Positions 4,357 to 22,900 of a DNA stretch of 23,051 nucleotides are shown here, piece after piece; the first letter of the stretch is position 1, and the number at the start of each line of letters is the position of its first letter. The translations under genes were made by a program, and so were the position numbers. This stretch comes from a virus. Location of the stretch: the IMG/VR virus record IMGVR_UViG_3300040808_000441, positions 1-23,051 of that record; one strand, given 5' to 3'. The notes beneath the pieces were generated by a model. That model saw nothing but the letters and a program-made list of their open reading frames with translations. It ran no database searches and was not told the origin of the DNA.

Positions 4357-4608
4357 TTATAAAGTGTATCCTGTTCCGTTATATCCGGTGTTATCAATGT
4401 ATTCTATCATTTGTTCGTAGCCGCCTACACTTGTTCCGCTTATCTTAATTTGCGGGAATGTTCTTGCTGTAGGAAACTGTTCAAACAATTCTTCACGAGT
4501 AAAATCTGTGTCTAATGTATAGTACTCAAATTTTAGATTATACTTTTCACAAAATGCTTTTGCCTTTGTACAACTTGGACATGCTGGCTTGCCATAAATT
4601 TCAATCAT
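4357..4608 (-). CDS. nrdC: Glutaredoxin (electron donor for ribonucleotide reductase)
   Basis: An 83-residue thioredoxin-fold protein with the active site CPSC at residues 10-13, the cis-proline TFPQI near residue 52, and the GGYEQM glutathione/substrate-binding turn. Length is typical for phage and bacterial glutaredoxins. In the cell it would reduce the oxidised tail of NrdA after each catalytic round. Its ATG overlaps the nrdB stop (ATGA), so it is translationally coupled to the enzyme it serves. The symbol nrdC is that used for the T4 homologue; an alternative label is grx. Confidence 0.92.
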   Translation of the reverse strand: MIEIYGKPACPSCTKAKAFCEKYNLKFEYYTLDTDFTREELFEQFPTARTFPQIKISGTSVGGYEQMIEYIDNTGYNGTGYTL

Positions 4609-5708
4609 AATGAAAAGCCTTTTAATGAGTCCTTGTCTACGTCTTGTTTGATGCCGCCAATGATATATGACTCTACTTCAGTCTCTTGTGGTGCAACTTG
4701 TAGCCCAGAGCTACTTAACCAATGTGTAGTCCATGGAAGCGGGTTAGTGTTTACTGGTTGGTCAAATATTGCATTGAAGCCTAGAGCCTTTAGTCTACGG
4801 TTAGCAATGTACTCTACATATTGATGTAACAATGTACTGTTGAGTCCAATCATGCTTCCGTCTTTGAACAGGTAGTCTGCCCAATCTTTTTCTTCTGCAA
4901 CACACTCGCGCCACAGATCGTATACTTCTTCTTGGCATTCTTTTGCAATCTTGGCCATTTCTGGATCGTCTTTGCCTTGCGACCACAACTTCAATACGTG
5001 TGTGCTTAGTGCCAAGTGTTGTGCTTCGTCTCTAGCAATAAGACTAATAATCTTAGCTGAACCTTCCATTAGCTTTAGTTCTCCAAAGCCAAATGTACAT
5101 GCAAAACTTACATAGAAACGCAAGCCTTCTAGAATGTTTACAGTCTGCATAGCAAGATACATTTTCTTTTTTACATCTCGCATACTGCCTTCGCCACGGT
5201 GTGTGTAAGCATCAGCTGCTTCTGTAAATGCATCATAGTGTTTAGTAACACTTGTTGCACGAGCAATAATCTTCTCGTCATCTAGAATAGTGTCAAACAC
5301 TTCTGCAGGGTCAGCATACACGTTCTTCATAATATGTGTGTAGCTACGTGAGTGAATTGTTTCAAAGAAGTCCCAAGTAACAATACAACCTTCTAGTTCA
5401 GGAAGTGAAACATGCGGCAAAAATGCCAGGCATGGACCACGTCCTTGGACACTGTCGAGCAGTGTTTGATACTTTAAGTTAGCTGTAAAGATATGCTTCT
5501 GCTCTGGACGGAAGTTAGCAAAGTCAGCACGATCTTTTTGTAGACTTACTTCTTCTGGACGCCAAAAGTATCCAAGCATAGTTTGATTTAGTTTATCAAA
5601 CACTGGAAACTTAAACACATCATAACGCTGTGTATTTTGATCTGCACCGAAGAACATATTCTGTTTGGTGAAGTCTACTTTTTCTTTATTAAAAACGGTC
5701 TTTGCCAT
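4605..5708 (-). CDS. nrdB: Class Ia ribonucleoside-diphosphate reductase beta (radical) subunit
   Basis: A 367-residue protein, near the 376 residues of E. coli NrdB. The iron site and tyrosyl radical are intact: D85 region (LLDSVQG), E116 and H119 in FFETIHSRSY, radical tyrosine Y123, then the second pair of ligands in the LEGLRFYVSF and RDEAQHL helices. It makes the stable radical that NrdA uses to reduce ribonucleoside diphosphates for phage DNA synthesis. The radical tyrosine marks it as a true class Ia enzyme rather than the Mn/Fe class Ic type. Start ATG 5708 is preceded by GAGGA. A consensus sigma70-type promoter lies just upstream, so it can be transcribed independently of nrdA. Confidence 0.96.
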   Translation of the reverse strand: MAKTVFNKEKVDFTKQNMFFGADQNTQRYDVFKFPVFDKLNQTMLGYFWRPEEVSLQKDRADFANFRPEQKHIFTANLKYQTLLDSVQGRGPCLAFLPHVSLPELEGCIVTWDFFETIHSRSYTHIMKNVYADPAEVFDTILDDEKIIARATSVTKHYDAFTEAADAYTHRGEGSMRDVKKKMYLAMQTVNILEGLRFYVSFACTFGFGELKLMEGSAKIISLIARDEAQHLALSTHVLKLWSQGKDDPEMAKIAKECQEEVYDLWRECVAEEKDWADYLFKDGSMIGLNSTLLHQYVEYIANRRLKALGFNAIFDQPVNTNPLPWTTHWLSSSGLQVAPQETEVESYIIGGIKQDVDKDSLKGFSL

Positions 5709-5741: not shown

Positions 5742-5770
5742 AGTATAGTAGTTCTATGCGGTTTTGTCAA
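5742..5770 (-). promoter_or_regulatory. Host sigma70-type promoter for nrdB-glutaredoxin
   Basis: On the minus strand TTGACA (5765-5770), exactly 17 bases, then TATACT (5742-5747). The match is six of six at -35 and five of six at -10 in the nrdA-nrdB gap, ahead of the nrdB ATG at 5708. Expected start is near 5735. This is an early-type promoter read by host polymerase. Confidence 0.75.
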
Positions 5771-10213: not shown

Positions 10214-11647
10214 TTAGTCAACAACAATAATATCATCGTCGTCAGAAAATTGCCGTAGCGATCTATTACTCTGTTGTGTGTCTTGTAAGGTATTGTGTTC
10301 GTTGTGTATCAAACTAACAGTAAATCTAATCCTATTTAGAGCATATGCAGTATCACTCCACGATCTATCACCAGCTGGCATATCAGCAATGGATCTTTCC
10401 ATAATGTCACTACAATACTTTAAAGAGTTACTATGGAACACCCGTTCGTTACCATATGACATTAAGTCGTCATATTGTGCGCATATGTCATTGTAGCCGT
10501 GCCCAAAATCAGGAAAAATGTATCCGCGGCCTTCATTAAATTGATTCTCAGGGCCATGAGCAAGTCCTACGCTGTGTCCTATCTCATGTAAGTCTGTGTA
10601 CACATCACATCTAGAAATAGAACCTGGTGGATACCCTTGTCTAAAATATCTCTTAACTCTAGCTACACCACATGTGCCTTGCGGTGACCAACCATGACCA
10701 AGTGCTATGTCAACATCTTTATTAGCTAACATACTTCCAATATTACCTGGGTCATGCCAATGTGCTTGTTGCAGGCGTTTGAGTTTAAACCGTATATGAA
10801 CCCCTGACTTTTCATAGATTTCATTGTATTGGTCAACTCGTTTTTGCCATTTTATCCACTCATTACTGTCTTGAGCATACTCGTCATAGAGACCTACAGT
10901 GATGTCGTCACCGTTACGCCAATGTGAGTGATACAATAGTATTGCAAGTTCCCACACTACAATCTGCTCGTCTTCCTCGCCATAGTAAATGAGAGACTGT
11001 CCCCCGTATTGCCGGTAGCCTGCACAATCAATATTACCGTCAACTAGGCACACTGGTTCTTCCTCAATGAAAAACTGAATCTCTTGATTTCCTAATGTGA
11101 AGATTCCGTTGCCTAGCTGTCCGTCTCCATAAATTTCAACAGTGTCTCTATCAACACGTACGGCATTACCTATAGTTGAAGAACTATGCTTCATGCCCCA
11201 AGGCTCTGGCTCACCTTTGAAGTTGGTATAGTTAACCTTAACAACAACAGGTTTGAATGCATCTCCAAATTCTTCAGTCAAGGATAGTGTTAGTGTAGGC
11301 GGGCTCCATCCACATGCTGTAGATTGCGCATCCTTTTCAACATAGGTTCCACCTTCGCCGTCATTGTATACAAACCATTCAACTCCAGGATAATCAGTAG
11401 AGCATCCTGAATTAACAAGTGTACCAGCTACTGGCGGGAGTTGGATTGTGCAATTAGGAGAGTTGCGTATCTTTTCAACTTCTCCGTTACTATACAAAAT
11501 CCATTCTACGCCATAAAAGGCACTAGAACATCCCGATTTTGTTATTGTTGGTTTACTTTTTGTATTAAGTAACTGATTGTATACTGTGCTTGGATCAGCA
11601 AAACTTGAAAATGAAACAAATAATAATAAGGTGGCGATATATCGCAT
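10214..11647 (-). CDS. Secreted metzincin-type zinc metalloprotease
   Basis: A 477-residue protein. Residues 1-17 (MRYIATLLLFVSFSSFA) are a clear signal peptide with likely cleavage before DPS. Two imperfect repeats follow (about 37-66 and 79-112), each with GC-S-x-x-Y/F-x-GVEW-x-(L/V)Y and two cysteines (C40/C66, C82/C112). The catalytic site is HEIGHSVGLAH, residues 354-364, the metzincin HExxHxxGxxH zinc motif with its glutamate, and a Met-turn LMSYG at M396. Extra cysteines between and after the motifs suggest a disulphide-bonded periplasmic or extracellular enzyme. The C-terminus is acidic (DDDDIIVVD). The substrate is unknown. It has its own late promoter and a hairpin leader, and lies between a tail fibre and a nuclease gene. 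It may be a virion protein exported oddly, but the signal peptide argues for secretion from the infected cell. Confidence 0.87.
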   Translation of the reverse strand: MRYIATLLLFVSFSSFADPSTVYNQLLNTKSKPTITKSGCSSAFYGVEWILYSNGEVEKIRNSPNCTIQLPPVAGTLVNSGCSTDYPGVEWFVYNDGEGGTYVEKDAQSTACGWSPPTLTLSLTEEFGDAFKPVVVKVNYTNFKGEPEPWGMKHSSSTIGNAVRVDRDTVEIYGDGQLGNGIFTLGNQEIQFFIEEEPVCLVDGNIDCAGYRQYGGQSLIYYGEEDEQIVVWELAILLYHSHWRNGDDITVGLYDEYAQDSNEWIKWQKRVDQYNEIYEKSGVHIRFKLKRLQQAHWHDPGNIGSMLANKDVDIALGHGWSPQGTCGVARVKRYFRQGYPPGSISRCDVYTDLHEIGHSVGLAHGPENQFNEGRGYIFPDFGHGYNDICAQYDDLMSYGNERVFHSNSLKYCSDIMERSIADMPAGDRSWSDTAYALNRIRFTVSLIHNEHNTLQDTQQSNRSLRQFSDDDDIIVVD

Positions 11648-14165: not shown

Positions 14166-14440
14166 AATGTTCGTAACTGTGATTGTAATTGTTTCAACTG
14201 TTGTTGTGTTGCTTTAATTTGTGCTTGAATTTGTTTCTTTTGCTGTTGTGCAGCTTTTCTAGCTTCTGGTGAGTTTGGATCAGGTTGGCCTATAGTATTA
14301 TCCATGCCTGCATTTTGGCCATTCATCTTTTTCATTTGCTGCTGCATATCTGCACCTGATTTAGATAATGGCGGTAGATTGGCTACACCTGCTTTACCTT
14401 GTTGGTCTGCTGGAGTTCCTACTAGTTCATCTACTCTCAT
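14162..14440 (-). CDS. Small Gln-rich coiled-coil protein, 92 aa
   Basis: Starts MRVDELVGTPADQQ, a weak match to the shared N-terminal tag. The middle is Gly/Asn/Met/Gln-rich (KMNGQNAGMDNTIGQPDP) and the C-terminal third is a long Gln/Lys helix (QKKQIQAQIKATQQQLKQLQ) with heptad-like leucine/isoleucine spacing, predicting a coiled coil. No recognised family. ATGA overlaps join it to both neighbours in the operon. Confidence 0.68.
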   Translation of the reverse strand: MRVDELVGTPADQQGKAGVANLPPLSKSGADMQQQMKKMNGQNAGMDNTIGQPDPNSPEARKAAQQQKKQIQAQIKATQQQLKQLQSQLRTL

Positions 14441-14781
14441 CTTGCACCTCTACGCTTCCTAGGTTTAATCCTACGTCTACCTGTATTTAATCTTTTTAAC
14501 TTTTGCGTAGTAGGGCTTGTTCTAGTTGTTCTACTACGTTTAATATCTATTGCAGATGCTTTTGATCTACGTGTTTTCTTTAATTGATTACTTTTCTTAA
14601 CATTCATCGGAGCATTGCATGTTGCTGCCTTAGCAACAACTCGGCCTTTACGTGGACCACTAGTACAACGATACTTGCGTGATGTGTGACCTGTTCCGCT
14701 TTTAGGTGTTTTCTTTGATCCGTGTCCAAAGACTGTAGCGACACCTTCATCCACTTCAATAAAGAGCTCTCGGAGTTGCAT
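14437..14781 (-). CDS. Highly basic capsid-internal-like protein, paralogue 2
   Basis: A 114-residue, very Lys/Arg-rich protein. It begins MQLRELFIEVDEG: a hydrophobic/Glu tag followed by VDE|G, resembling a T4 prohead-protease site. The core KYRCTSGPRKGRVVAKAATC is closely related to the next protein upstream, and the C-terminal half is almost pure Arg/Lys/Thr (SRTTRTSPTTQKLKRL ... IKPRKRRGAR). This looks like a DNA-binding internal head protein that is packaged and trimmed. Two cysteines 15 residues apart are conserved between the paralogues. Start overlaps the upstream stop (TAATG). Function inferred. Confidence 0.72.
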   Translation of the reverse strand: MQLRELFIEVDEGVATVFGHGSKKTPKSGTGHTSRKYRCTSGPRKGRVVAKAATCNAPMNVKKSNQLKKTRRSKASAIDIKRSRTTRTSPTTQKLKRLNTGRRRIKPRKRRGAR

Positions 14782-15077
14782 TAGCGTTTCCTTTTGTTTA
14801 GAGCTTGTACTCTTTTACTTGCTGGATTAATACGTTTTGTTTTACGTGCTTTACGTACCATTCTTCCGCCTAGTCTTGCTTTAGTCTTTTTAAGAGTCAT
14901 TCTTTTCTTTATGTCAGGAGCAGCAAAACATTGTGCCATTTTTGATACAATTCGATTCTTCCGTGGACCGCCAGTACAACGGTACTTGCGAACTACCTTC
15001 TTTCCAGAACGTGCCCAAGTTTGACCTTCATCGAGGTCCTGTTCATTGTGTTCAATAAAAAACTCACGTAATAACAT
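14781..15077 (-). CDS. Highly basic capsid-internal-like protein, paralogue 1
   Basis: A 98-residue basic protein beginning MLLREFFIEHNEQDLDEG, with a possible prohead-protease site at LDE|G (residues 15-18), then KYRCTGGPRKNRIVSKMAQC and a Lys/Arg-rich tail (KTKARLGGRMVRKARKTKR). Clearly related to the adjacent downstream gene, so the pair arose by tandem duplication. The start is unusual: the codons for the first residues lie inside a terminator-like hairpin and its T-run, no Shine-Dalgarno site is visible, and the late promoter just upstream predicts an RNA beginning one base before the AUG (leaderless). An internal ATG is not a better start because it would remove the tag. Likely packaged DNA-binding protein. 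Confidence 0.72.
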   Translation of the reverse strand: MLLREFFIEHNEQDLDEGQTWARSGKKVVRKYRCTGGPRKNRIVSKMAQCFAAPDIKKRMTLKKTKARLGGRMVRKARKTKRINPASKRVQALNKRKR

Positions 15078-20079: not shown

Positions 20080-20865
20080 ATGACAAGCAGTATTAAGGAC
20101 ATTGACTTCAAAAAACGTTCTCTTTTATTTGCTAAACTATCCAAGATATCTTATAATAACATCAAAGTAGCTAAAAAGCAAGCGGAAAGATTAGGTTTCA
20201 CTGAAGTAGAATTTTATAACAAAGACGGTGCGCAAGCATATCGTTTTATGAATGACACAGATATAGTAATTGCGTGTCGCGGAACACAACCTACACAATT
20301 TAACGATATTGCAGCAGATTTAAAAGCAATGCCTGTCGTTGCTGAAACTGTTAGTAGAGTTCATAGAGGATTTAAAGCAGAAGTAGATGAACTGTGGCCA
20401 AGAATAATGGCAGACCTAATGTCAAAGCAACCTAAGCAAAAACTTTGGTTCTGCGGTCATAGTTTAGGAGCTGCAATGGCAACTATAATGGCAAGTCGCT
20501 GTCACTTTAACACACGTTTGCCAAATCCAGAGGAATTATACACTTATGGTTCACCAAGAGTAGGTTGGAAAGGTTATGTTGTCCATTTAGGTGTCGTACA
20601 CCATCGTTGGAAGAACAATAATGACATTGTCACTACTGTTCCTTATAAATGGATGGGTTATACACATCATGGCGAAGAACACTATATGAATGCATATGGC
20701 AATGTTCGCAATTTGACTAGGTGGCAGCGTGTTAAGGATCGCTGGCGTGGTATGTGGATGGGAATAAAGAGAGGAAAAATTGATAACTTTTCTGATCATT
20801 CTATAGATAATTATATTCTTTATCTTTCATTATTTGCAAAGGGTAAAGAAAATACACAACACTAG
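20080..20865 (+). CDS. Class 3 lipase/phospholipase (alpha/beta hydrolase)
   Basis: A 261-residue protein of the Lipase_3 type. Core motifs are in order: IVIACRGTQ (oxyanion region, about 62-70), FNDIAADL, VHRGF, the nucleophile elbow CGHSLGAAMAT with S128, YTYGSPRVG (155-162), NNNDIV with D182 as catalytic acid, and DHSIDNYI with H240 as catalytic histidine. All three residues of the triad are thus in place. No signal peptide, so it acts in the cytoplasm or reaches the envelope only after membrane damage, or travels in the virion. Expected substrate is membrane glycero(phospho)lipid. Controlled by a perfect late promoter, so it is made with virion and lysis proteins. First gene of the plus-strand arm. 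Confidence 0.88.
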   Translation: MTSSIKDIDFKKRSLLFAKLSKISYNNIKVAKKQAERLGFTEVEFYNKDGAQAYRFMNDTDIVIACRGTQPTQFNDIAADLKAMPVVAETVSRVHRGFKAEVDELWPRIMADLMSKQPKQKLWFCGHSLGAAMATIMASRCHFNTRLPNPEELYTYGSPRVGWKGYVVHLGVVHHRWKNNNDIVTTVPYKWMGYTHHGEEHYMNAYGNVRNLTRWQRVKDRWRGMWMGIKRGKIDNFSDHSIDNYILYLSLFAKGKENTQH

Positions 20866-21004: not shown

Positions 21005-21033
21005 TTGACATACACCCTGTAAGATGCTATTAT
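21005..21033 (+). promoter_or_regulatory. Consensus sigma70 promoter of the DUF1127-AOX operon
   Basis: TTGACA (21005-21010), exactly 17 bases, TATTAT (21028-21033). Six of six at -35 and five of six at -10, the strongest host-type promoter in the window. Expected RNA start about 21040. Confidence 0.85.
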
Positions 21034-21039
21034 ATACAA

Positions 21040-21194
21040 ACGTAACAAAGAGCGGCTTCAGCTCAGAAAAAATGAATGGCACTGGGAAAGACTAGGGCGT
21101 GTCTTACGCCACACAACAGACTGCACAGCTGGGGAAGTTCCAGGGTTGGCTGATTCCTAAAATCACACACACATATACAAAGGAGAATGTAGTA
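21040..21194 (+). promoter_or_regulatory. Long structured leader of the DUF1127-AOX operon
   Basis: About 155 nt of untranslated leader. It has three hairpins: GAGC-GGCTTCA-GCTC (21050-21064), GGCGT-GTCTT-ACGCC (21096-21110), and a nested CAGC/GCTG with TGG/CCA stem (21126-21152). A seven-codon upstream ORF (MNGTGKD, 21072-21095) ends just before the second hairpin. AGGAG at 21181 serves the DUF1127 start. No known riboswitch class recognised. Confidence 0.5.
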
Positions 21195-21452
21195 ATGACT
21201 ACGTTGACAATGGCGGCTGGTACCAGCCTTTCAGGAGTAGCGAACTGGATCAAAAAAATAAACGCTAACATGGCACACAGAAGAGCTGTGCGTCAAGCAG
21301 TAAAAGACCTTTCAGCACTAACAGACTATGAACTACATGACATTGGTATTTCCCGTGGAGATATCCGTGCTGTTGCTAATGGTGATACTTCTATGAAAAG
21401 AGGTATCCAAGTCCACACAGATGCTAACACAAACCTCAAGGGGTGGGTGTAA
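21195..21452 (+). CDS. DUF1127 (YjiS-like) protein
   Basis: An 85-residue protein started at ATG 21195 with AGGAG nine bases upstream. An open in-frame extension back to a GTG at 21099 exists but lacks a good ribosome site. The C-terminal half is the DUF1127 domain: basic helix AHRRAVRQAVKDLSALTDYEL followed by the signature HDIGISRGDIRAVANGD. Small DUF1127 proteins are common in alpha- and gammaproteobacteria, and some bind RNA and affect stress or metabolism in alphaproteobacteria. The domain is a host-type gene in a phage, and it heads the operon leading to the alternative oxidase. Role here unknown: possible RNA-level control of host metabolism. Confidence 0.85.
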   Translation: MTTLTMAAGTSLSGVANWIKKINANMAHRRAVRQAVKDLSALTDYELHDIGISRGDIRAVANGDTSMKRGIQVHTDANTNLKGWV

Positions 21453-21637
21453 TGGAAGCTGTAGGTGACACAACTATTAAAATTAATCCTTTCAAAGCAA
21501 TTGGCAAAACTATAATTGCAATTTGGATTGGCTTCATAGCATTTGGCGAGTCAGCAGGCAGAGCAAGAGCTGCTGCTGAATTAAGTCGTCAAGGCTATCA
21601 CGCAGAAGCAAAACGTTTGATGTTAGAGAAACGCTAA
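21452..21637 (+). CDS. Small protein with one hydrophobic segment, 61 aa
   Basis: Start at ATG 21452 overlaps the DUF1127 stop (TAATG), with AAGGGG upstream. A short hydrophobic segment (TIIAIWIGFIAFGESAG, about 22-38) could lie in or on the membrane. It is followed by the amphipathic helix ARAAAELSRQGYHAEAKRLM. The last helix shares the pattern A-x-x-EL-x-x-x-G-x-x-x-EA-x-R with the next tiny protein, suggesting common ancestry. Not recognised as a named family. Confidence 0.72.
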   Translation: MEAVGDTTIKINPFKAIGKTIIAIWIGFIAFGESAGRARAAAELSRQGYHAEAKRLMLEKR

Positions 21638-21771
21638 TGTGGAAACGTTTTATTAAAGCAATGGAATACAGAAGTTACTGTATGGCAATTAGAGAATTGC
21701 GTACAAAAGGTTTGTACAAAGAAGCTCAAAGAATTTCTGAGTTCAAACACAACATGTATAAAACATCATAG
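21637..21771 (+). CDS. Tiny helical protein, 44 aa
   Basis: ATG 21637 overlaps the previous stop in a TAATG. Translation: MWKRFIKAMEYRSYCMAIRE, then LRTKGLYKEAQRISEFKH and a short tail. The pattern A-x-REL-x-x-K-G-L-Y-x-EA-QR repeats that in the preceding protein, here without the hydrophobic segment. Codon use and overlap support it as real despite its length. Function unknown. Confidence 0.65.
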   Translation: MWKRFIKAMEYRSYCMAIRELRTKGLYKEAQRISEFKHNMYKTS

Positions 21772-21780
21772 GAGATAGAA

Positions 21781-21906
21781 ATGAATAGGTTAAGAAATGC
21801 AATTAAGAATTGCGATGGACAATTTTGCGATCAGATTATGGAAGCGGCGCTTGCTATAACTGTATTCAGCATCATGTACATATCTATTGCGCAAATGACT
21901 GCGTAG
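21781..21906 (+). CDS. Tiny membrane peptide, 41 aa
   Basis: ATG 21781 with AGGAGAT seven bases before it. It begins [20 protein letters not shown], basic with two cysteines, then one hydrophobic helix ([16 protein letters not shown]) and a short tail, predicting a single-span inner-membrane peptide with the positive N-terminus in the cytoplasm. It ends four bases before the AOX start, so its translation probably delivers ribosomes to AOX. It could be a partner peptide of the membrane-bound oxidase; this is inference from position. Confidence 0.68.
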
Positions 21907-21910
21907 TAAT

Positions 21911-22531
21911 ATGACGCTGGTCCACTACAAGCCAACCTCTACGTCTGACTATTTTGCATACGGCTTTACTAAAAGTATGCGATGGTTTGCGGATACGTTC
22001 TTCCGTAAACGTTATGGGCATAGAGCAGTTGTATTAGAAACAGTAGCCGCAGTACCAGGAATGGTAGGCGGCATGTGGACGCATCTTAGAAGTTTGCGTA
22101 AACTACGCCCTGGATATGGGCCACTAATCCGTACCCTACTAGCAGAAGCAGAAAATGAACGTATGCATTTGATGACGTTCATTGAAATTGCAAAGCCCAA
22201 TTGGTTTGAAAGACTGCTCATACTGGTTGCACAAGTTATATTCTGGCATGTATACTTTATAGTATTTCTTATATCGCCATCTACTGCACACAGAATAGTA
22301 GGTTACTTTGAAGAAGAAGCTGTGTATTCGTACACAGAATATCTTAATGAGCTTGACGAAGGGCGCATTGAGAATGTTCCTGCACCTAGAATTGCAATTA
22401 CGTATTGGAACTTAGCAGATGATGCTAGGTTGCGTGATGTAATTCTAGCTGTTAGAGATGACGAAGCAGGACATAGAGATGTTAATCATTATATTGCAAC
22501 ATATGGCAATGTAAAGGTTGACAAGTACTAA
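21911..22531 (+). CDS. aox: Alternative oxidase (cyanide-insensitive ubiquinol oxidase)
   Basis: A 206-residue di-iron carboxylate protein with every core AOX motif: [15 protein letters not shown] (E43), [19 protein letters not shown] (E83, H86), [14 protein letters not shown] (E135/E136) and [11 protein letters not shown] (E185, H188). The LETVAAVPG and HLRSLR forms mark AOX rather than the plastid/cyanophage terminal oxidase PTOX. The hydrophobic stretch [19 protein letters not shown] anchors it to one leaflet of the inner membrane. It oxidises ubiquinol and reduces oxygen to water without pumping protons. One usual histidine of DEAHHR is Gly here, but it is not an iron ligand. Shorter than plant AOX as it lacks the N-terminal extension, as in bacteria. 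No own Shine-Dalgarno site; probably coupled to the preceding peptide. Confidence 0.97.
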
Positions 22532-22546
22532 ATAATACGTTATATT
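22518..22546 (+). promoter_or_regulatory. Sigma70-type promoter for the last gene
   Basis: TTGACA (22518-22523), 17 bases, TATATT (22541-22546), spanning the AOX stop codon. A CTAAATA late-type element lies inside the spacer (22528-22534), so early and late control may overlap. Confidence 0.7.
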
Positions 22547-22582: not shown

Positions 22583-22900
22583 ATGTCAAAAGTAGAAACT
22601 ACCTACGGGGAAACTATCCTCAAGCAAACACAAGAAATTGCTGACATGTTCAAGCAGGCAATGCCAAAAGTCACAACAAACAAAAATGGTTATGAGATTC
22701 GTACCAAAGTGTTAGAAATGGCACAAAACAATATTTGGAACGACTATCATGCTAAACTAGGACAGTTTGAAACTACCGTTGCTAAAGATGGCAATGAAGT
22801 AGTAACAACTGTTTCACTTCCAGAAGTTCCTGGTGCTGATGCAGTACTAGAAGCGGCTGAAAAGTTTTACGAATTTGTAAACGGTAAACCAACTAAATAA
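22583..22900 (+). CDS. Hypothetical protein, 105 aa
   Basis: Starts ATG 22583 after AAGGAGA at ideal spacing. The protein is soluble and helical: GETILKQTQEIADMFKQAMP, then IRTKVLEMAQNNIWNDYHAKLGQFE, a short beta-like VAKDGNEVVTTVSLPEVPG, and a final helix (ADAVLEAAEKFYEFVNGKP). The helical, Gln/Ala-rich, amphipathic look recalls phasin-type proteins but there is no decisive motif. Own sigma70-type promoter, so expressed early with, and beyond, the AOX operon. Role unknown. Confidence 0.75.
   Translation: MSKVETTYGETILKQTQEIADMFKQAMPKVTTNKNGYEIRTKVLEMAQNNIWNDYHAKLGQFETTVAKDGNEVVTTVSLPEVPGADAVLEAAEKFYEFVNGKPTK

Follow-up and report, generated by a model that had tools for sequence, protein, structure and literature searches.

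A 23,051-base stretch of viral DNA, taken from an IMG/VR virus record (IMGVR_UViG_3300040808_000441) and referred to here at its full length as the window, carries a gene for an alternative oxidase (AOX) in a plus-strand gene group at its end; the genes from base 2 to 20018 all lie on the minus strand. A first-pass annotation, made from the sequence alone, had described a complete AOX with all six iron ligands, and this description holds. The protein matches the Pfam AOX family (PF01786) at E = 1.1e-80, with 270.7 bits against a curated cut-off of 22.7, and among solved structures it matches, at E ≤1e-3, nothing but three alternative oxidase sequences of trypanosome type (E ~1e-48). Residues E43, E83, H86, E134, E185 and H188, which we take from the familiar motifs of trypanosome alternative oxidase (TAO) to be the six di-iron ligands (four Glu, two His), do not vary across 19 viral rows, nor across 34 rows in which viral and bacterial sequences are aligned. 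Seven further residues (R24, D28, R38, L42, A137, S140 and Y141) are invariant over 34 aligned rows and are presumably quinol-pocket positions, judging from the aligned motifs and the TAO literature. The AlphaFold model of the window AOX (pLDDT 83.7, pTM 0.80) superposes on the trypanosome structure 3vv9 with a TMq of 0.90, an rmsd of 1.9 and 45% identity, so that the protein is predicted to adopt the four-helix di-iron fold. Codon comparisons indicate that viral AOX is evolving under purifying selection, with dN/dS (NG86) values of 0.031–0.13 in 16 of 18 viral pairs and saturated dS in the other two.

The features of the gene group, and of one phage gene elsewhere in the window that carries a similar promoter-like site, are given in Table 1.

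Table 1 Features of the window discussed in the text
Feature	Position	Strand	Basis or remark
AOX, phage-type, 206 aa	21911..22531	+	Pfam, structure match, alignment, trees
Island promoter, sigma70-like, TTGACA-N17-TATTAT	21005..21033	+	11/12 match
Structured 5' leader RNA, conserved	21050..21165	+	Alignment, covariation; covariance model match 65.1 bits
DUF1127 small protein, 85 aa, ATG start	21195..21452	+	Pfam PF06568, E=5.8e-10
g64, conserved 64-aa protein, overlaps DUF1127 end	21443..21637	+	Relatives; no NCBIfam match
g44, conserved 44-aa protein	21637..21771	+	Relatives; no NCBIfam match
g41, 41-aa protein, hydrophobic segment by eye	21781..21906	+	Relatives
Second sigma70-like promoter, TTGACA-N17-TATATT, before g105	22518..22546	+	Overlaps last AOX codons
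g105, conserved 105-aa protein, island 3' border	22583..22900	+	Relatives; no match in phages collection
nrdB	4605-5708	-	Phage gene; promoter-like site just upstream
Promoter-like site TTGACA-17-TATACT before nrdB	5742-5770	-	11/12; same class as island promoter

Distribution and phylogeny of viral AOX

Scanning IMG/VR viral contigs with the window AOX gave 393 related stretches, the best 80 of which form the first viral set examined here, and 80 of the 88 stretches found with the AOX of Phage C48C1 form the second; the two counts may overlap and are not additive. The identical AOX protein is encoded, within the same gene island, in eight other IMG/VR contigs (L002–L009, with L082 being the window's own copy), which argues against a chimera. 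Phage-borne AOX is thus neither a chimera nor a one-off and is widespread in phages of aquatic bacteria. The first-pass annotation had named two outcomes that would count against it, a host–phage chimera and a protein confined to one bacterial genome set with no viral relatives; neither came about, as no chimera turned up and the viral candidate stretches run into the hundreds. The window AOX is a metabolic gene of cellular type with a stable place in phage genomes, and qualifies in this respect as an auxiliary metabolic gene.

The sole record of the annotated phage collection with an AOX match at E ≤1e-3 is Phage C48C1 (57% identity to the window AOX), a circular 156-kb record, called complete, that is T4-like and belongs to the Kyanoviridae. 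Its AOX is annotated as 'hypothetical protein' and sits between the clamp and clamp-loader genes. The C48C1 annotation lists no photosystem gene from base 14,249 onward, and a search of the whole record did not find the Photo_RC family. Across 48 AOX records, many of them fragments and the window's full genome not being counted, psbA/psbD were found in none (0/48), and T4 gp23 was detected in 7. C48C1-type loci (n = 80, flanks of up to 3 kb) comprise 56 with both gp45 and gp44, 5 with one of the two and 19 with neither, and the gene order gp45-AOX-gp44 (sliding clamp, AOX, clamp loader) is present in every locus showing both (56/56). Either gene was seen in just 3 of the 80 loci of the first viral set; other AOX neighbourhoods feature radical-SAM genes (L032 type, 17 loci), a nearby tail-sheath gene (L028 type) or nearby ribonucleotide reductase (RNR) genes. 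Several radical-SAM genes flank AOX in the L032-type loci (e.g. L032:6318-7400, L065:1984-3156 and L049:5731-7179).

Phage-type AOX, which is usually short (183–212 aa), is marked by a one-residue insertion before NERMHL, giving a spacing from the helix-2 HL to NER of 24 residues rather than 23. Every one of the 82 rows in the first viral set, which counts L082 and C48C1, has a spacing of 24, as does every parsed row of the second (65, with 15 unparsed), amounting to 147/147 parsed rows of both sets with 15 of 162 not parsed. The bacterial comparison covers the best 80 of at least 513 AOX rows, a sample rather than bacterial AOX at large; within it, the spacing is 24 in 20/20 rows falling inside the phage clade and 23 in 58/58 parsed rows outside it (2 unparsed).

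In a quick tree of 140 rows, one group (SH-aLRT 99) took in every viral row (56) together with 20 bacterial rows, and four cyanophage PTOX rows were a remote outgroup. A careful tree of 71 rows separated 28 viral and 8 bacterial rows from 34 bacterial rows plus the viral row L298 (support 99/94), and recovered C48C1-type AOX as a purely viral group (13 rows, 100/100). A single clean viral AOX clade was not supported, since the careful tree requires at least five label changes and 0% of 200 bootstrap trees showed one origin. Membership of cyanophage PTOX was rejected on both profile and clade, the match to profile phrog_4235 being only 2e-4 over a partial length and PTOX alignments giving 25–33% identity at E ≥3e-3, in line with the earlier statement that the enzyme is not the cyanophage type. 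The phylogeny against bacterial AOX, PTOX and viral proteins proposed in the first-pass annotation thus places the protein in a phage-rich group, far from PTOX and with few bacteria inside. The accompanying label of a proteobacterial AOX type stands in so far as this is a non-PTOX AOX, but it gives way to membership of that group and its one-residue insertion.

The bacterial AOX sitting among viral rows come from Polynucleobacter, Limnobacter and a Baikal SAR11 metagenome-assembled genome (MAG), and three bacterial loci within the phage group (L092, L104 and L106) have ordinary metabolic genes as neighbours. Bacterial rows with such neighbours inside the viral group indicate that phages and a few bacteria have exchanged AOX genes, in one direction or the other, and phage-to-bacterium transfer is possible on this phylogenetic evidence. 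Polynucleobacter and a few other bacteria (L086-L100, L102, L104, L106 and L109) have AOX with the phage-type insertion, grouping with phage AOX. On the contig of the MAG Verrucomicrobia TMED56 (L141), several AOX neighbours are viral families of the radical-SAM locus type, so that the contig is probably phage DNA that ended up in the MAG's bin.

A SAR11 AOX used as IMG/VR query gave only two viral stretches, L298 and L299, a limited control because a single-protein scan reaches close relatives only. The AOX protein of L299 is identical to that of the C48C1-type locus L272, which leaves L298, with an HL-NER spacing of 23, as the one stretch grouping with SAR11. The AOX of L298 is an apparent separate capture, or the record possibly holds cellular DNA. 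L298 is a large viral contig (282,855 bases) whose SAR11-like AOX is without the phage-type insertion.

The leader RNA and the DUF1127 island

The first-pass annotation placed AOX in a phage genome behind a near-perfect host promoter, and the island promoter is indeed a strong sigma70-like site in a genuine phage lineage. With a spacing of 17 and a score of 11/12 or better, the window has four such sites, whereas 30 first-order Markov sequences averaged 0.33 and never exceeded 2. Besides the island promoter, two more of the four just precede phage genes (nrdB and g105), as would fit a host-type promoter class common to them, and the sites before nrdB and the island are consistent with joint early expression of RNR and island. 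The island promoter is the same in nine close relatives (L002–L010) and the window, scoring 11 against shuffle maxima of 9.5–11, with a shuffle also reaching 11 in one of these 10 rows. At the position equivalent to the second promoter, L174, where AOX is lacking, has a matching TTGACA-17-TATTAT.

The gene order in the window's lineage is promoter, leader, DUF1127, g64, g44, g41, (AOX) and g105. An in-frame GTG at 21099 is a less likely DUF1127 start because relatives begin at the same MTTL. The first part of the leader is common to 50 viral stretches, and where 500 nt or more follow the leader (44 instances, counting the window; another 7 were too short), DUF1127 is present in 42 and g64 in all 44. 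AOX is present in 17 of 31 complete leader islands, these instances being partly near-copies: 10 of the 17 AOX-bearing islands are of the window type and the 14 AOX-less islands include similar pairs. The operon of the earlier description therefore survives as a plus-strand gene group but is better described as an island of leader RNA, DUF1127 and small genes in which AOX is optional. Presence and absence are cleanly paired in L184 and L174, which align over 882 nt at 98%, then differ by a 606-nt block missing from L174, then align over 264 nt at 89%; the block, present in L184 only, is almost the entire AOX gene. The comparison of L215 with L210 gave the same numbers, and two more distant pairs were less tidy. 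A very large phage (L185, a contig of 261,806 bases) has a leader-DUF1127-g64-g44-g105 island without AOX inside.

The leader, between promoter and DUF1127, is about 93 model positions long, corresponding to 116 nt of the window, and has short hairpins. In 27 distinct rows, 99.3% of the cells of 15 predicted pairs are paired (0/500 shuffles as high), and slid versions of the structure gave 20–41%. The structure was predicted from the alignment also used for the covariation test, which the test thereby favours; in it, double-change cells number 26 against a shuffle mean of 7.8 and the covariation score is 0.217 against 0.123 (0/500 as high for both), pairs with a double change number 4 against 2.3 (18/500 as high), and further pair types, at 7 against 7.5, did not exceed the shuffles (490/500 as high). 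These values describe a conserved secondary structure with compensatory changes. Rfam gave no match at gathering score in 10 leader sources, the window yielding only a chance-level match (E 6.7). In 27 virus records, the covariance model found the leader once each in 14 known carriers and in none of the other 13, a positive control run with laxer filters than the bacterial searches, which found it in 0/289 and 0/185 sampled genomes of two bacterial classes (474 in total; the 289 are a sample from the class of a Pelagibacteraceae genome), an empty result that counts for little without a known positive. Nor was a leader found at three loci with a DUF1127 relative (L013, L018 and L055). A possible short upstream open reading frame (uORF; ATG, with MKGISYAIQR* and variants) occurs in 21 of the 27 rows; it is not the only conserved feature of the leader, because the ATG is missing in 6 of 27 rows, and it may be translated. 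A pseudoknot pairing a CUUC loop with GAAG, noticed by eye, was dropped since the window type has GAAU. The leader may be a regulatory RNA family of phages, without an Rfam counterpart, that controls the island.

DUF1127 proteins have been reported to bind the sensor kinase PhoR and to control phosphate uptake (PMC12501420), and work cited there describes RNA binding by the Rhodobacter member CcaF1 and no such evidence for Salmonella YjiS. A Sinorhizobium DUF1127 gene is described as subject to leader attenuation that depends on uORF translation (PMC12218461). Given these reported roles and the structured leader, the phage DUF1127 looks, by analogy, like a host-takeover regulator. DUF1127-like matches in the phages collection comprise 26 records, are weak (E 3e-5 to 0.1) and belong to phages of Sinorhizobium, Rhodobacteraceae and Methylophilales, a weak hint as to the host. 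DUF1127 was found in none of five bacterial genomes, four with AOX of the clade (L104, L092, L106 and L102) and one outside it (L105).

Among the minus-strand genes of the window, those with matches include both RNR subunits, DUF6267, an exonuclease family and a virion structural family; the closest matches listed for the RNR small subunit (about 64%) are from Pelagibacter phage Mosig and cyanophages. A class 3 lipase-like gene lies just ahead of the island (20080-20865, plus strand), with relatives near the AOX island in 21 of 82 loci, window included. The minus strand also encodes a 477-aa protein (10214-11647) with a reprolysin-like metallopeptidase match by family search and a signal peptide by eye, unusual for a phage, and a pair of adjacent related small proteins (14437-15077; 114 and 98 aa) that are very basic and have an RKYRCTxGPRK motif.

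Proposed role and relation to known systems

The AOX probably serves as a phage-specialised, non-pumping quinol-oxidase bypass through which the quinone and NAD pools stay oxidised while the phage replicates. What the sequences show is an intact gene with its ligands and predicted fold, under purifying selection, in a phage context, behind a promoter-like site and optionally present; the activity, timing, host and benefit of the enzyme are inferred. Host sigma70 polymerase would make the phage AOX during infection, and the protein would dock on the host inner membrane, membrane docking being a property of the AOX family. There it would take electrons from ubiquinol and reduce O2 to water, independently of the cytochrome chain and without pumping protons, as AOX enzymes pump none. 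With the quinone and NAD pools oxidised, carbon flux and the synthesis of amino acids and dNTPs could run at full rate, and the bypass would matter wherever respiration is throttled by low ATP demand, proton back-pressure, light-driven proton pumping or failing cytochrome oxidases. The positions of AOX in the C48C1-type replication cluster and in a takeover-like DUF1127 island point to use during genome replication. We tentatively extend this to a wider picture, in which phages of heterotrophs have their own AOX lineage, locked into a replication cluster in one group and swapped through a riboregulated DUF1127 island in another, which would uncouple host respiration during replication, with a new leader-RNA family controlling the island and some freshwater bacteria perhaps owing their AOX to phages.

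Three observations weigh against such a role. The window's lineage can do without AOX: of 31 leader islands with g105 in view, 14 have none within the 3.2 kb searched. Outside the window's close relatives the promoter-like site is weaker, scoring 7–9.5 in more distant islands, within the shuffle range. Finally, the third Glu of the FEEEA motif, a non-ligand position that we take to line the quinol pocket, is Q in many relatives (FEDQAV/FENQAV), and quinol affinity could differ because of this replacement.

The first of these observations bears on a different view of what is selected, namely that selection acts primarily on the island as a regulatory or takeover unit (leader RNA with DUF1127), AOX being only one exchangeable payload among several. 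This is a serious possibility, if somewhat short of an even chance: DUF1127 and g64 follow the leader almost without fail (42/44 and 44/44) and AOX is in only 17/31 complete islands, and the difference between L184 and L174 is the presence or absence of the single AOX gene. However, AOX is also found in several phage contexts that are unrelated and have no such leader, which argues that it has a value of its own.

It is unlikely, though worth retaining, that AOX is mainly protective, draining an over-reduced quinone pool and so limiting superoxide and hydrogen peroxide, or sustaining respiration when haem oxidases are blocked by nitric oxide, sulfide or cyanide, with phage DNA and the radical-bearing class I RNR as the beneficiaries. 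The enzyme is the same and all the structural evidence applies equally; C48C1 also has genes annotated as peroxiredoxin and Hsp20, and the DUF1127 family of the island includes the reportedly RNA-binding CcaF1 of Rhodobacter (cited in PMC12501420). Yet family searches of the island proteins gave no oxidative-stress gene, though most match nothing, and placement in a replication module suggests metabolic supply at least equally. We consider it improbable that the benefit lies in a lowered proton-motive force, for instance by excluding superinfecting phages that need it for DNA entry or by blunting membrane-based host defence: the absence of proton pumping and the status of optional cargo in a variable island would suit a competition gene, but electrons are diverted with no proton leak via AOX, making any drop only partial, and no pointer to exclusion was noticed in a neighbourhood whose small genes have no known function. 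A passive host gene, whether a recent random pick-up or a host–phage chimera with no selected role, is hardly credible, for although bacterial AOX at 63–74% identity exist and L298 indicates that occasional pick-up happens, chimera or contamination is contradicted by identical or close islands in many contigs, by the many viral stretches and by the fixed gp45-AOX-gp44 order (56/56), and purifying selection, the insertion in every parsed viral row and the SAR11 scan, limited control as it is, with one of its two stretches being C48C1-type, speak against passive carriage. The respiratory bypass makes a testable prediction of cyanide-resistant, salicylhydroxamic acid (SHAM)-sensitive O2 uptake in infected cells, and natural pairs of AOX-plus and AOX-minus phages are at hand, together with a conserved phage leader RNA outside Rfam.

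A literature search on AOX and quinol oxidases in viruses found nothing on AOX in phages of heterotrophs, although its coverage is incomplete and priority is uncertain. Electron-transport genes are mentioned for marine viromes in a report whose main text contains neither 'oxidase' nor 'AOX' (PMC4053976). Among the closest known systems is cyanophage PTOX (phrog_4235), well described in PMC7472177 and PMC3037559, which resembles the window AOX in being phage-borne, in occurring in T4-like phages, in belonging to the same diiron oxidase superfamily and in its proposed function as an electron valve, but which is a remote outgroup at the identities given above. Plastocyanin lies upstream of PTOX in the two cyanophages examined, whereas psbA/psbD were found in none of the 48 AOX records. 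Prasinoviruses likewise carry a virus-borne gene of the AOX/PTOX superfamily; their AOX is reported to fall into a single clade, with Micromonas sequences among its closest relatives (PMC12584671), and, in a comparison made by description rather than alignment, these viruses of eukaryotic algae are not phages of bacteria. The bacterial and mitochondrial ubiquinol AOX (TAO 3vv9; SAR11, Polynucleobacter and Limnobacter) share ligands, fold and ubiquinol type with the phage AOX, which differs in being usually short and in an insertion common to only 20 of the 80 bacterial rows examined. One hydrothermal-vent virus encodes cydAB (PMC12043954), reportedly, likewise a virus-encoded quinol oxidase, but a haem bd oxidase of an unrelated family in a single virus. 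The Sinorhizobium DUF1127 gene (PMC12218461) also lies behind a long regulatory mRNA leader, the likeness being one of arrangement; the phage leader was not found, under strict filters, in the 289 sampled genomes of the Pelagibacteraceae-genome class. Viral control of respiratory-type electron flow has so far been known mainly from the photosynthetic side, through cyanophage PTOX. A large, phage-specialised lineage of ubiquinol AOX, carried by phages in which no psbA/psbD were found, suggests that viruses re-route the aerobic respiration of heterotrophs too, a possible direct link between infection and the turnover of oxygen or carbon in water.

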